A stretch of DNA of 64,000 nt from assembly GCA_029550525.1 (NCBI GenBank), contig JAKPHF010000023.1, forward strand, positions 1 through 64,000. The letters are read 5' to 3'. The first letter of the stretch is position 1; each line of letters opens with the position of its first letter. This stretch comes from Planctomycetota bacterium (GTDB lineage: Bacteria; Planctomycetota; Phycisphaerae; UBA1845; PWPN01). Shown here piece by piece: positions 36,355 through 42,532 of this stretch. The notes below the pieces were generated by a model that was given only the letters and a program-made list of their open reading frames with translations, ran no database searches and was not told where the DNA came from. The position numbers and the translations under genes are program-made.

Positions 36355-38280
36355 CTAGTCCGGGGCGACCAGATTGGCAGGGGTCAAGTCCTCGCCGTTG
36401 CCGCGACCGGCCAGAAACCGCACGATCTTCGTGCGAGGCGGCACTTCGAACAGAAAGTAGTAATAGTAATTGTTGGTGAAGTTGTCGCGGCGAATCCGAT
36501 CCGTCCTCGGCACCGCTGCACCGCTCATCCGCGTGGTCTCGTCGAAATAGACCAACTCGAAGATTCGCTCGCTGCCCACGGTGGCCAGCGCCCACACGCC
36601 GACGGCCCGATACTCCTTGCCGGCCTCGTCGAACACCGCGACATTCTTGAGCTGGCCGGCGAAGTCGATGGCCTGCCCGTACGTGCTGCCCGGCCGTAAC
36701 CGGGTCGTGCTCAGATGCAAGAGATGCTTGCCCGCCGGCACCTGAAACTTCCGCAACGGCGTTTTCGCGCCCTGGATTGGCGTATCGTCGGCGTTGAACT
36801 TCGCGATGATCCGCCCGCCGCCACCTATCACTGTGTCGCCGCGAACTTCGACGTCGTTGTTGACATACTCGGTCAGCTCGAACGGCAACTCGTTGCTGAA
36901 GAACGATCCTTCCAGATCAGCCGAGTTGCGGTTGATGCGGCCACCCGACCGGGACTCAGCACCGCGATCCGTGTTCTCGTGACGATTCAGGTTCGGCCTG
37001 GGCCTGGCACTCGTGCTGCCTTGGCTCGTCCTCTGGCCGCCACCGCCGCCGCCATCGCCGGAGTCTTCCTCCGCGGCATCGCCACCAGACTTCTTGGCCG
37101 GCTTCTTGGTCTTGGCGGCGCGGGCGGCCGGCGGCTTATCCGCCACGCGCGTGATCTCCGTCCGAGCATTGCGACGAAATTCGATGAACCACGGCTCGGC
37201 CTCTTTGGGCACCTCGAACACGAAGTCGAACTGACCGCCCTTGCGTTCCACGGACTCGCCTTCGGCCAGCCGCCGATAGAAGTCCTTGTTTTTGTCCTTG
37301 GGATGAGCCACCTCCGGTTCGTCGATGCCGACCAGATGATACGAACCGGTGCGCCCGCCCGACTCGCGGGTGAACAACCGGACCTGCCCGGTGTTGAACC
37401 GGAACGTGGAGCCGTCATCCGACGCATCGTTACCCACCTGAGCCCGCACGGCCAGATAGCGGTTGCCCGACTGCAGCTTCTGGTTGCTCTTGGCTGGGTC
37501 GATGAACTCGATCTTGGTATTACGTTCAGTCCGCTGAGCCCCATACACGGCGTTGGCCGGGAGTTCCCAGCACGTCTCGACGCGGACCGCGTCCCTCTTG
37601 CGAGCCACGGTGGTCTTCTGCCCGATCTGCGTGAAGCGGTTCCAGAACAGATCGTCCAGCAAGTTCGAGTGGGTGACGGCAAAGCGATTCCCGCCGGCCA
37701 GGGCGTTGTCCGACAGGTGCGAAACCAGGGCCAGCGTGAAACCGTCCGGGTTGAGCCAGATGTTGTTGCGGGAGAAATTCACTTTGCTCAGGTCCACGGC
37801 AGCCAGTACGCTCGCCTCGGTCTCCTGGTCGTCCTTGGGCGTGAGCGACACCAACTCACCGTTGTCGGCCTGGTACATGGTGTACCGGCTGAACCCCAGC
37901 CACTGCCAAGGGAAGGGCAGCATCTGGATGCCGACGCTCAGCGTGCCGATGATGATCATGGCCGTGAAAAAGCCGAAGATCCCGCCGCCGATGCGATCGA
38001 CGTACAGTGAAAAGTGCATGTTGTCCTTGATCAGCAGGTCGACGATCACCCGCATGATCAGCAGGGACACGAAGAAAATGGACATCAGGACGATGGCCCG
38101 GCCGTCATCCGGCTGGCGGTCGATGAGGTAGTCGTAGTAGATCCCTTCGTACAACCCGAATGCCAGGGCCGCCGCCAGCACGGCCAGAAAGAAGTTGATG
38201 GCGGCACTGAACAGCCCGAGCAGCCCCTGGTAAAACGTGATCGCCAGGATCAATACGATCGCGAAAAGTGAAAACCACAT
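36355..38280 (-). CDS. CvpA-like membrane protein with long extracytoplasmic domain
   Basis: A 641-residue protein. The first 130 residues hold four predicted transmembrane helices in the CvpA (colicin V production) pattern, with the conserved-type segment VDRIGGGIFGFFTAMIIIGTL. The rest is soluble: one domain (about 170-390), a low-complexity linker rich in Gly, Asp, Ser and Lys (about 390-450, including KKPAKKSGGDAAEE and a GGGGGG run), and a second beta-rich domain to the end. Fused soluble parts of this size are not usual in CvpA proteins, which are about 160 residues. No function is established. It is next to the PilB/PilT-like genes on the same strand. Confidence 0.6.
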   Translation of the reverse strand: MWFSLFAIVLILAITFYQGLLGLFSAAINFFLAVLAAALAFGLYEGIYYDYLIDRQPDDGRAIVLMSIFFVSLLIMRVIVDLLIKDNMHFSLYVDRIGGGIFGFFTAMIIIGTLSVGIQMLPFPWQWLGFSRYTMYQADNGELVSLTPKDDQETEASVLAAVDLSKVNFSRNNIWLNPDGFTLALVSHLSDNALAGGNRFAVTHSNLLDDLFWNRFTQIGQKTTVARKRDAVRVETCWELPANAVYGAQRTERNTKIEFIDPAKSNQKLQSGNRYLAVRAQVGNDASDDGSTFRFNTGQVRLFTRESGGRTGSYHLVGIDEPEVAHPKDKNKDFYRRLAEGESVERKGGQFDFVFEVPKEAEPWFIEFRRNARTEITRVADKPPAARAAKTKKPAKKSGGDAAEEDSGDGGGGGGQRTSQGSTSARPRPNLNRHENTDRGAESRSGGRINRNSADLEGSFFSNELPFELTEYVNNDVEVRGDTVIGGGGRIIAKFNADDTPIQGAKTPLRKFQVPAGKHLLHLSTTRLRPGSTYGQAIDFAGQLKNVAVFDEAGKEYRAVGVWALATVGSERIFELVYFDETTRMSGAAVPRTDRIRRDNFTNNYYYYFLFEVPPRTKIVRFLAGRGNGEDLTPANLVAPD

Positions 38281-38373: not shown

Positions 38374-40194
38374 TCACTGCCCCGGCTTGGCTTCCTCATC
38401 TCGTATGACCCGCAGCATTTCGTTCACGCTGGTCGTGCCCTCGATCACTTTCTGCATGCCGATCTCCTGGAGGTAGAGCATACCGGCCTTGCGGGCGGCG
38501 GCTCGGATGCTGTTCACGGGCTGGCCGGCCTTGATCTGCTCGCGAACCGCATCGTTGACGGTCATGATCTCGAAGATGCCCGTCCGCCCGAAGTACCCGC
38601 TGCCTTGACAGTTCGGGCAGATCTTGGGGTTGCCCTTCTCGTCCACGCACTCTTCAGGTCGGGGCGTCCGGTAGAAGTGCTCGATCTTGTCGATGGGCAG
38701 GTTCGCCTTTTTGAGCAGTTGCGGATCGGGCTTGTAGGCGATGCGGCAGGCCACGCACAACTTGCGCAACAGCCGCTGCGACAGGATGCCCCGCAGCGCC
38801 TCGGCCACGCCGTCGGTGTCGCCGGCCAGGCTCAACACCCGCTTGAGTGCGTCGAAGCTGTCCTTGGCCTGCACCCCCATGTAGATCCGCTTGCCGCCGC
38901 GAGCCGCCGTCACCGCCAGGTGGGCCGTCTCGCGATCCAGGCAGTCGCTCACCATCACCACGTCGGGCTCGCGGCGAAGCACGGTCTGGAGTTGCCGGGC
39001 GTAGCTCCCCTCGTGCTTGGTGGAGTCGTACCGATACTGCGTGATGTTCTCGAGCTCCATCAGCGGCTGCTGTTCGAGCGTCAGCAGGTTCTCCATGAAC
39101 GCGTCGTGACACCGCAAAGCGGCGTAGAGCGTCGTCGTCACACCGCTGGCCTTCGGTCCGCTCACCAGGATCAGGCCGCCGGGAGCGGTCAGCAGTGAAT
39201 CGAAGGCCTCTCGCTGCGCTTGAGTCAGACCCAGGTCGGCGATCCGCAGCCGGTTCTCGTCACCGATGATCTTCAGCGCCAGCCGCTCATGTTGCGTCGT
39301 CCCGCTGGAGAGCACTTCGATCTTCGTCTCGCCGCGCGAGGCTCCCGGTATCGTGCCGAATATCTGCCCCTGCTGGGGCTTGCGCTTTTCTTCCGGGTCC
39401 AGACCGGCGATACGTTTGAGGAACGCCGCCGCCTGTTCGGCGACCTCGCGAGGCATGACGTCGTTGCGTGGTGTCACCACGCCGTCCACCCGGTAGGCCA
39501 CCCGCAGACCGTTGGCTCCGATCAGCATTTCGACTTCGGTGGCTCGCCGCCACAGCGCATCGAACAGCAGGTTCTGGGCGGCCTCGTAGGAGGCGGTCTG
39601 GTTGGGATCCTGAGGCACGGGCACCTTCTTCTTGTCCGCCCCGGTCAGCTTGACCCGTTCGAACGCCAGCGAAGGACCGCTTTCCTTCTTCTTGGAGCCC
39701 AGCGAGGCGAACCATGCCTTGATGTGTCGCGGCGTGAACACCCGGTTGGGTGCATCCACCTGGCTGTTGCGGATCAGCACGTACGTGCCACACACGCCGA
39801 CCGTCACCACGAACCACAGACCGAACCCGGCGGCGAAAAGCCCCGCCGTCTGCCAGGGCAGGAATATCCAGATCGCCAGCCCGGCAATTCCGCCGCCCAG
39901 GACGATGCCGTTCCACATCTCCTGGTTCATCTTCCGCAGCCGCGACAGATCCTTGTCCAGCCACTGGCAGAACAGCAGCCAGGGGATCATGGCGACCAGG
40001 ATGAGAAGCACACGGATGGGACTGATGAAGTTGCCCGGCGAGGGCAACTCGGCCAACGGCCCTGCGGCCAGGGCGGGAACCGCCGGTATCAGTCCGGCGG
40101 CCAAGGCGATCTGCCAGGAACGGACACCCAACGACCCCTCTGGACCGCGGGAGTTCGACGTTGTTCGGGTCCGGTTCTGCTGGATGCAGTGCAT
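38374..40194 (-). CDS. GspE/PilB-like ATPase homologue with lost Walker motifs
   Basis: A 606-residue protein. The N-terminal third has about four membrane helices (around 28-45, 58-80, 92-112 and 118-140), unlike typical GspE/PilB. From residue 200 it follows the type II/IV secretion ATPase pattern, including a C-terminal zinc-binding region with CVAC and CPNC pairs and GRTGIFEIM. However Walker A reads SGPKASGVTTTLY where GPTGSGKTTT is expected, so the essential lysine is valine (residue 352). The Walker B/Asp-box region reads VVMVSDCLDRETA in place of LVGEIRD-x-ETA, and the His box reads YMGVQAKDS. It is therefore probably unable to hydrolyse ATP and may be a structural or regulatory homologue. 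The intact pilT gene lies upstream. Confidence 0.85.
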   Translation of the reverse strand: MHCIQQNRTRTTSNSRGPEGSLGVRSWQIALAAGLIPAVPALAAGPLAELPSPGNFISPIRVLLILVAMIPWLLFCQWLDKDLSRLRKMNQEMWNGIVLGGGIAGLAIWIFLPWQTAGLFAAGFGLWFVVTVGVCGTYVLIRNSQVDAPNRVFTPRHIKAWFASLGSKKKESGPSLAFERVKLTGADKKKVPVPQDPNQTASYEAAQNLLFDALWRRATEVEMLIGANGLRVAYRVDGVVTPRNDVMPREVAEQAAAFLKRIAGLDPEEKRKPQQGQIFGTIPGASRGETKIEVLSSGTTQHERLALKIIGDENRLRIADLGLTQAQREAFDSLLTAPGGLILVSGPKASGVTTTLYAALRCHDAFMENLLTLEQQPLMELENITQYRYDSTKHEGSYARQLQTVLRREPDVVMVSDCLDRETAHLAVTAARGGKRIYMGVQAKDSFDALKRVLSLAGDTDGVAEALRGILSQRLLRKLCVACRIAYKPDPQLLKKANLPIDKIEHFYRTPRPEECVDEKGNPKICPNCQGSGYFGRTGIFEIMTVNDAVREQIKAGQPVNSIRAAARKAGMLYLQEIGMQKVIEGTTSVNEMLRVIRDEEAKPGQ

Positions 40195-40318
40195 GGAGAC
40201 TCCGGCTATGCGCTTCGACTGATCGCGGGGCGCCGTTCCGCAACGCCGGGCGCGATCGAGGGATGAACATTAACACCGGGCGATGATAACCATTGCCGCC
40301 GACCCTCGCCAGCAGCAG

Positions 40319-40353
40319 CGAGCGGCGGAGGCAGTGCCCCCGCCGAGTCTCTT
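40319..40353. repeat. Palindrome family A element (short copy)
   Basis: gcgagcggcggaggcagtgc then ccccgccgagtctcttcc, between pilT and the PilB-like gene; the stem is interrupted compared with the other copies. Confidence 0.55.
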
Positions 40354-40469
40354 CCGCCGAGCAGCACACTCGCCACGAGCGTCACTGCGTCGGTAACGGT
40401 CCAACTGAGTCGAGCCCGGCCGTTCGCCCGGCTCGCGCGCGTCGTGCGACCCGCCTGGCTAGCCGATCC

Positions 40470-41693
40470 TTACCCCAGGATTCCGCCGCCGCCCGAGCTG
40501 ATGCCCTTGAGACGCATCTTCAGCTCCTGCGGGTTCGGCGAAGCGGCGTAGGCCACATCGGTTTCGATGAACTCCTCCTCGACGAGCCGCTTCAGGCACG
40601 AGTTCATATCCATCATGCCTTCGGCTTCACAAGCCCGGATCACCTTGGGGATTTCGTCGTCGCGCTTCTCGTCGATCAGCTTACGAATCGTCGAGTTGGC
40701 GAACATGATCTCCACCGCCGGCACGCGCTGCACGCCCGGCTTGATGCTGGGCAGCAGCTTCTGGCAGATGATCGCCTGGAGGTTGAACACCAGCGTCTGG
40801 CGGACCAGGTCGCGGGAACCTTCCGGAATCAGGTCGAGCACGCGACCGATGGTCTGAGCGGCACCCGAGGCGTGGATGGTTCCGAAGACCAAGTGGCCCG
40901 TCTCTGCCGCGTTCAGGGCCGCCATGAAGGTCTCCTCGTCACGCATCTCGCCCACCAGCACCACGTCCGGGTCCTGCCGCATCAGGTACTTCAGCGCGGC
41001 CTGGAAGTTCGCCACGTCCACGTGCACTTCGCGCTGGTTGATCAGCGACTTCTTGTCGCGGAACAGGTACTCGATGGGGTCCTCGATGGTCACGATATGG
41101 CAGGCTCGCGTCTGGTTGATGTAGTCCAGCGCTGCCGCGATGGTCGTGGACTTACCCGAACCGGTGATACCCGCCAGGAGCACGAGTCCCTGATGAAATT
41201 CGGTGATCTTGTACATCGACTCGGGCAGGTACAACTGCCGGAAGTCCAGGATTTCCGAGTTCACGCGCCGGGCCGCCACGCTGAGCACGCCGCGCTGCCG
41301 GAAAATGTTCACGCGGAACCGGTCGCTCTCGCCCAGCTGGTAGGCAAAGTCAGCGGCGCCCGACGTCGCCAACTGCTTTTTCTGCTGGTCGTTCATGATC
41401 TCGAACCAGATCTCTTCGACCTGCTGCGGCGTCAACGGGGGCTCTTTCACCGGCTTGAGCTGGCCTTTATGCCGGATGTGAACCCGGGCTCCGGACTTGA
41501 AATGCAGGTCCGACGCCTTCAGTTGGACCATGTATTTGAGGTACCGGTGAATCTTCGGCTCTTTCTTGGCCTCCGCGGGCGTGGAGGTTCCGCCCAGAAC
41601 CTCGGTGCTGCTCTCCTGGCCGTTCTGCTCCTCCCCGCCTGGAATATCCAGGGGTTCAGAATCAACGTTGTTGATCTTTCCGCCCGACGACAT
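40470..41693 (-). CDS. pilT: Twitching motility ATPase PilT
   Basis: A 407-residue PilT-family retraction ATPase. After a Gly/Glu-rich N-terminal extension of about 45 residues comes the usual core: KASDLHFKSGARVHIR, Walker A GITGSGKSTT, the Asp box TIEDPIEYLF, Walker B DVVLVGEMRDEET, the His box GTIHASGAAQTIGRVLD. All catalytic residues are present, in contrast to the neighbouring PilB-like protein. It would power retraction of type IV pili or a related fibre. AAGGAG lies 7 bases before the ATG at 41693. No pilin genes are in the window. Confidence 0.93.
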   Translation of the reverse strand: MSSGGKINNVDSEPLDIPGGEEQNGQESSTEVLGGTSTPAEAKKEPKIHRYLKYMVQLKASDLHFKSGARVHIRHKGQLKPVKEPPLTPQQVEEIWFEIMNDQQKKQLATSGAADFAYQLGESDRFRVNIFRQRGVLSVAARRVNSEILDFRQLYLPESMYKITEFHQGLVLLAGITGSGKSTTIAAALDYINQTRACHIVTIEDPIEYLFRDKKSLINQREVHVDVANFQAALKYLMRQDPDVVLVGEMRDEETFMAALNAAETGHLVFGTIHASGAAQTIGRVLDLIPEGSRDLVRQTLVFNLQAIICQKLLPSIKPGVQRVPAVEIMFANSTIRKLIDEKRDDEIPKVIRACEAEGMMDMNSCLKRLVEEEFIETDVAYAASPNPQELKMRLKGISSGGGGILG

Positions 41694-41764: not shown

Positions 41765-42532
41765 CTATAGCCGCACGGGAATATTACGGCGGGCCATATA
41801 TTCCTTCGTTTCCCGGATGGAATAGGTTCCAAAGTGGAAGATGCTGGCCGCCAAGACGGCGTCCGCCTTCCCGATGGTCACCGCGTCGGCCAGGTGCTGC
41901 GGGCAGCCCGCGCCTCCCGAAGCCACCACCGGAATGGACACCGCCTCCGCAACCGCCGCCGTAATCTCCAGATCGTAGCCGTTTTGCGTCCCGTCGGCGT
42001 CCATACAGGTCAGCACGATCTCTCCCGCCCCGAGTTCCTCCACCTGCCGAGCCCAGGCGACGGCCTCGAGACCGGTGGGGGTCCGGCCTCCGTGGATGTG
42101 CACATCCCAGAACTCCCGGCCGTCCTTCATCACCCGTTTGGGGTCGATGTTGACCACCGTGCAGCACCGGCCAAACCGCCGAGCCGTCTCCGTGATGATC
42201 TGAGGGTTCAACACCGCCGCCGTGTTGATCGAAACCTTCTCCGCCCCCGCTTGCACCAATCGGGTGACGTCCTCGATGGTCCGGATGCCCCCGCCGACCG
42301 TAAACGGCATGAAGCACTCTTCCGCCACCCGCCGAACCACTTCCAGCATGATGTCCCGGCCTTCGTGGCTGGCCGTGATGTCGAGAAAGACCAGTTCGTC
42401 CGCCCCGGCCTCCTCGTACGTGCGCGCCGTCTCCACCGGGTCGCCTGCGTCTCGCAGATCGACAAAGTTCACGCCTTTGACCACGCGGCCTTCTTTGACG
42501 TCCAGACAAGGGATGATTCGTTTGGCAAGCAT
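41765..42532 (-). CDS. hisF: Imidazole glycerol phosphate synthase subunit HisF
   Basis: A 255-residue HisF cyclase subunit of histidine biosynthesis. It begins with the invariant [19 protein letters not shown], has the catalytic Asp11 and a second Asp (near residue 130, in VVNIDPKRV), then [12 protein letters not shown] and the closing SIFHFG. It forms a heterodimer with HisH, which is not in the window; hisF is isolated from other his genes here. A promoter with good spacing lies upstream in the debris region. Confidence 0.97.

Follow-up and report, generated by a model that had tools for sequence, protein, structure and literature searches.

The PilB, GspE and PilF ATPases (PF00437; PDB 5tsg, 5oiu, 4ksr) are built on an N2D plus C-terminal fold that carries a tetracysteine zinc-type module and a GRTGIFE motif. 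A 606-residue protein encoded in the planctomycete DNA analyzed here (a stretch of 64,000 nucleotides, hereafter the window) has these parts in common with them but, unlike them, is predicted to have a three-helix membrane anchor, and a Pfam scan found PF00437 alone in it and no cytoplasmic N1/MshEN domain. In addition, and unlike catalytic PilB/GspE, it lacks Walker A, Walker B, the Asp and His boxes and the N2D arginines. We refer to it as the membrane-anchored pseudo-PilB, TM-PilB. The platform protein PilC/GspF (PF00482) resembles it in the role that we propose for TM-PilB, that of a membrane docking site for PilT; the two have no sequence relation, and the PF00482 matches in the genome all lie outside TM-PilB. 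The downstream partner of TM-PilB resembles the CvpA or Colicin V production family (PF02674), whose domain it appears to contain and from which the Phycisphaerae partner differs by an extension of 200-500 aa. CvpA is an old family whose function is poorly known. Pseudoenzymes are a familiar phenomenon in kinases and proteases. In a partial literature search we found no description of a pseudo-ATPase among PilB/GspE, the motors of type IV pili and type II secretion, nor of CvpA together with PilT or of Phycisphaerae with PilT.

A further comparison is offered by PilU, which, like TM-PilB, is a second T2SSE-family protein encoded near PilT (PMC6821130, PMC6762196). In V. cholerae, PilU drives retraction even when PilT carries Walker A/B mutations, but does not do so where PilT is absent; Walker A mutants also keep their binding to each other and to PilC (PMC6821130; PMC6762196). 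The PilT/PilU pair is a precedent for a two-motor assembly in which one motor protein is of use although catalytically dead. PilU itself is a soluble, catalytically intact, PilT-like protein, whereas TM-PilB is PilB-like, membrane-anchored and, as its motifs suggest, naturally dead.

Motifs and membrane segments of TM-PilB

TM-PilB is encoded at 38374..40194 on the minus strand, and the PF00437 match, an AlphaFold model and orthologues across the order identify it as a putatively dead PilB/GspE-type protein. The match to PF00437 (T2SSE; E 7.6e-58, 196.4 bits against a cut-off of 24.9) covers residues 207-595, that is, N2D and the C-terminal domain, and the protein falls far below the NCBIfam equivalog cut-offs of TIGR02538 (215.1 vs 675.65) and TIGR02533 (224.9 vs 630.25). 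Sequence comparison and the fold of the AlphaFold model both place PilF, PilB and GspE nearest among solved relatives; the model matched PilB, PilF and GspE chains, with a best E of 1.3e-34 against the PilB/PilF structures. Its pLDDT is mostly 75-95 in the domain and poor, about 40-64, in the membrane part.

The first-pass annotation had reported a Val in place of the Walker A Lys at residue 352, an SDCLD Walker B and the loss of the His box, and the open reading frame bears out all three. Walker A reads GPKASGVTTTL (residues 346-356; 39127..39159, minus strand) with Val352 at the position of the Lys, and the Asp box, LEQQPLMELENITQ (residues 373-386; 39037..39078, minus strand), contains LEQQPL, in which the D after E is absent. 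The Walker B region, VVMVSDCLDRETA (residues 412-424; 38923..38961, minus strand), has SDCLD as its acidic part and has lost the Walker B Glu. The His box, ARGGKRIYMGVQAKDSF (residues 431-447; 38854..38904, minus strand), has zero His in ARGGKRIYMGVQAKD and follows the pattern GGKRIY...VQAKD. The N2D domain (residues about 197-310; 39265..39606, minus strand) is without the H222/E224/R233/R293 pattern of intact orthologues. The fold-defining parts, by the same annotation, are kept, and both CxxC pairs are indeed present: the tetracysteine region with C480/C483, C526/C529 and GRTGIFE (38569..38760, minus strand) is 98.5-100% conserved in 137 dead orthologues, and in the window's protein the last motif is complete as GRTGIFEIM at 536-544.

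A signal-peptide-like hydrophobic segment (residues 29-47, with the end AVPALAA before G; 40054..40110, minus strand; hydropathy 1.86) and three transmembrane helices predicted by hydropathy at residues about 56-74, 96-114 and 117-135 (39790..40029, minus strand) make up the N-terminal part. The membrane anchor noted earlier thus stands, but its "about four" helices become three plus a signal-like segment. Comparable N-terminal signal-like segments are seen in several intact orthologues, and hydropathy gave three hydrophobic segments in 33/48 orthologues. Positively charged residues follow helices 1 and 3 of TM-PilB and, by the positive-inside rule, would place the ATPase-like domain on the cytoplasmic side.

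Other PilB-type and PilT-type genes in the window's genome are intact, and several PilC-type platforms are encoded there too, so TM-PilB is an unusual additional paralogue rather than the sole pilus motor. A separate cluster of PilB, PilT, PilB and PilC-type genes in this genome (G000:C62:2000-7800) is probably its main locus for type IV pili or secretion.

Conservation of the losses and intact orthologues in other classes

A search of 114 genomes of the order recovered full-length TM-PilB orthologues, clearly apart from canonical PilB matches, in about 105 of them (33-77% identity), and in the rest of the class Phycisphaerae TM-PilB is present in 38 of the 40 genomes sampled. The Walker A Lys is absent in 85/85 order orthologues and the first His of the His box likewise (0/85 have it), which excludes chance. 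From the rest of the class, 30/31 sequences are without the Lys, the exception (L044) having lost every other motif. For order and class together this gives 115/116 sequences without Lys and 0/116 with the full motif set; no class member retains more than one of four scored features, and the replacements of the lost residues vary (V, I, L, M, A, R, T, Q or G). Sequencing error is ruled out, because the loss recurs in >100 genomes. Nei-Gojobori dN/dS (omega) for TM-PilB is 0.03-0.27, with a dN of 0-0.05 over the dead core (residues 330-480) in the pairs tested; TM-PilB is under purifying selection. With the losses fixed and the gene under such selection, the earlier proposal of a membrane-anchored pseudo-ATPase appears sound on these sequence data.

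In other Planctomycetota classes the motifs are complete in 32/53 full-length orthologues, membrane segments included, and read GPTGAGKST, VEDPVEY, GEIRD and TGHMVFSTVHAND. The Lys loss, whose conservation across the phylum the first-pass annotation had proposed as a check, therefore extends through the order and the class Phycisphaerae but not through the other classes. A second class mixes intact and dead forms; the 21 dead ones read (families f80, f89, f106 and others) have different replacements and, in most cases, an Asp box lengthened by an insertion of two residues. TM-PilBs are split from canonical PilBs at 97/94 support. All dead sequences fall on one branch (79/92 support), with long-branch attraction in play, and L182, L192 and L195 are without firm placement in the tree. 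A tree that unites the intact and dead members of the second class is no worse, its log-likelihood being 1.3 higher (p-AU 0.538). Since the second class holds both states and the uniting tree is no worse, at least two losses are likely, and motor function has probably been lost at least twice in the Planctomycetota.

We compared residues between 32 intact and 137 dead orthologues. The P-loop Lys, the Asp and His boxes, GEIRD and R419 are fixed in the intact and lost in the dead forms, and so is the N2D set of H222, E224, R233, D275 and R293, trans arginines included; in canonical members of the family this set sits close to the ring's nucleotide. The tetracysteine, R474, R477, Q274, D237 and G322 are 96-100% kept in the dead set, and in the order Q207, G264, R361, H363, K436, Y438, G521 and K582 have become fixed as a new set. 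Read from the alignment, the active site is dismantled as one unit while the remaining domain is still constrained, which fits a structural or regulatory role.

The most eroded copies are L144, L147 and L157. Walker A reads ADKHQGGPTTM and ADKHQGAPTTM in L144 and L147, and L157 has mostly lost the tetracysteine too (LAESSR, CPESGG).

The neighbouring PilT and CvpA-like proteins

The 407-residue PilT, the pilus-retraction motor (40470..41693, minus strand), scores 400.5 bits against TIGR01420 (cut-off 319.1), and its motifs ITGSGKST, IEDPIEY, VGEMRDEE and TGHLVFGTIHAS are intact. The first-pass annotation had credited it with every catalytic residue, which is confirmed here and extends to 111/111 of the upstream PilTs read. 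PilT lies upstream of TM-PilB at 109/164 loci overall (order, 47/81; rest of the class, 30/30; intact forms elsewhere, 13/32; dead forms elsewhere, 19/21). Across the order, genomes with the PilT orthologue tend to have TM-PilB as well (80/2/26/6, Fisher p 0.006, kinship ignored), and genomes with PilT only are rare (2/82, both incomplete). The dead protein occurs without that PilT orthologue in about 26 of the order's genomes, of which at least 15 are at least 90% complete; these have other PilTs of about 43% identity. These 26 or so genomes and the adjacency of 47/81 rule out an obligate PilT partnership as a rule. Of the suggested pairing with PilT, what stands is a frequent, intact neighbour; the proposed look at co-occurrence yielded the association given above.

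In L023 and L029 a different intact PilB-type gene lies directly upstream of the pseudo-PilB gene, replacing pilT, and the PilT orthologue is found slightly further upstream on the same contig.

The downstream gene (36355..38280, minus strand) encodes a CvpA-like membrane protein of 641 aa with a putative N-terminal Colicin_V domain and a long C-terminal extension. It scores 26.6 bits against PF02674 (cut-off 29.3). Three short syntenic homologues from other classes exceed the cut-off (32.8, 35.8 and 40.5 bits), and both Phycisphaerae forms scanned are longer and narrowly under it. CvpA-like proteins are about 200-290 aa long at most loci outside the Phycisphaerae and about 350-690 aa (open frame) within the class, where the extension of 200-500 aa has predicted beta strands (weak AlphaFold model, pLDDT 48.8). 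A CvpA-like gene follows TM-PilB directly at 158/165 loci (order, 79/81; rest of the class, 31/31; intact forms elsewhere, 29/32; dead forms elsewhere, 19/21) and is its near-constant operon partner, which the first-pass annotation had overlooked. With PilT missing at many loci and CvpA near-constant, PilT is a frequent yet dispensable partner. Upstream of pilT lies hisF (41765..42532, minus strand), which has this position also in 21 loci of the class and of other classes, an old and functionally puzzling neighbourhood across the phylum. An Rfam scan of the window gave no match. Scans for promoters and terminators gave no informative signal, and from hisF to the cvpA-like gene the minus strand showed no terminator-like site.

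These counts bear on our main rival explanation, in which the pseudo-PilB and CvpA alone form an envelope complex for secretion, septum or envelope maintenance, the PilB fold is structural and PilT is a historical neighbour. Such a complex, independent of PilT, would account for the closer adjacency of CvpA than of PilT in the order, for the persistence of the dead TM-PilB in genomes without the PilT orthologue and for the long CvpA extension in the Phycisphaerae, where TM-PilB is dead. It accords poorly with a fully catalytic PilT at every locus read in the rest of the class and at nearly all dead loci of the second class, and with the rarity of PilT-only genomes, and we consider it possible but rather unlikely.

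A proposed scaffold for PilT

The explanation that we prefer, and in which we place about half of our confidence, is that TM-PilB is a class-wide dead paralogue of PilB/GspE that likely acts as a scaffold or regulator for PilT at the membrane, beside CvpA. In the planctomycete operon order pilT, TM-PilB, cvpA, the three helices would anchor TM-PilB in the inner membrane with its PilB-type N2D and C-terminal domain facing the cytoplasm. With the Lys of Walker A, the Glu context of Walker B, both the Asp and the His box and the arginines of N2D all lost, TM-PilB is presumably no longer a motor. As a fixed ring or docking scaffold or regulator, it would hold a soluble PilT hexamer (of the adjacent PilT, or of another where that is missing) at the membrane next to CvpA and leave ATP hydrolysis to PilT. 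By analogy with the V. cholerae motors, a PilB ring that is dead and fixed in the membrane could serve to hold an active ring of PilT, or to gate it. We infer that TM-PilB oligomerizes, has lost ATP binding, contacts PilT and CvpA and serves a filament or envelope process. Counting against the scaffold are the 26 or so genomes of the order in which the dead protein lacks this PilT orthologue, the poorly known function of CvpA, the poor membrane part of the structure model and the intact ATPase at the same operon position in other classes, so that catalysis is not foreign to the module. More tentatively, and below even probability, we suggest as a whole that motor function was abandoned at least twice with operon and fold kept, that the pseudo-motor ring holds the active PilT, and that the PilT/CvpA machine is perhaps no pilus.

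We regard it as improbable that TM-PilB, with its unusual motifs, has remained an ATPase or at least a switch that binds ATP. A P-loop of the form GxxxxG[V/L/I/R]TT is kept, its glycine and threonines largely retained, and Walker B GE occurs in 22/85 order sequences and the Lys in L044; however, the Lys has gone along with the D of the Asp box, both His and the arginines of N2D, the replacements vary, and one scored feature is the most that any class member has. Mixed rings of TM-PilB with PilT or an intact PilB, whose inactive subunits would set force or speed, are very improbable: PilB and PilT have the same fold and hetero-assembly has been proposed for PilT/PilU (PMC6762196), but the PilT/PilU data speak against mixed hexamers (PMC6762196), and TM-PilB is predicted to be membrane-fixed and has only about 25-30% identity to PilT. 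Finally, intact orthologues, which the first-pass annotation took as the sign of a decaying gene, do exist, but they sit in other classes and so point to an ancient conserved demotion, and with a loss as old as the class, a frame that almost every genome keeps open, an omega far under 1 and newly fixed residues, a pseudogene on its way out is ruled out for practical purposes.

Intact and dead orthologues at the same operon position within one phylum amount to a natural experiment on the structural versus catalytic role of a PilB-type ring. A gene set open to testing is available in the second class, among whose members there are probably planctomycetes amenable to genetics, and CvpA, an old family, gains a conserved genomic link to PilT.
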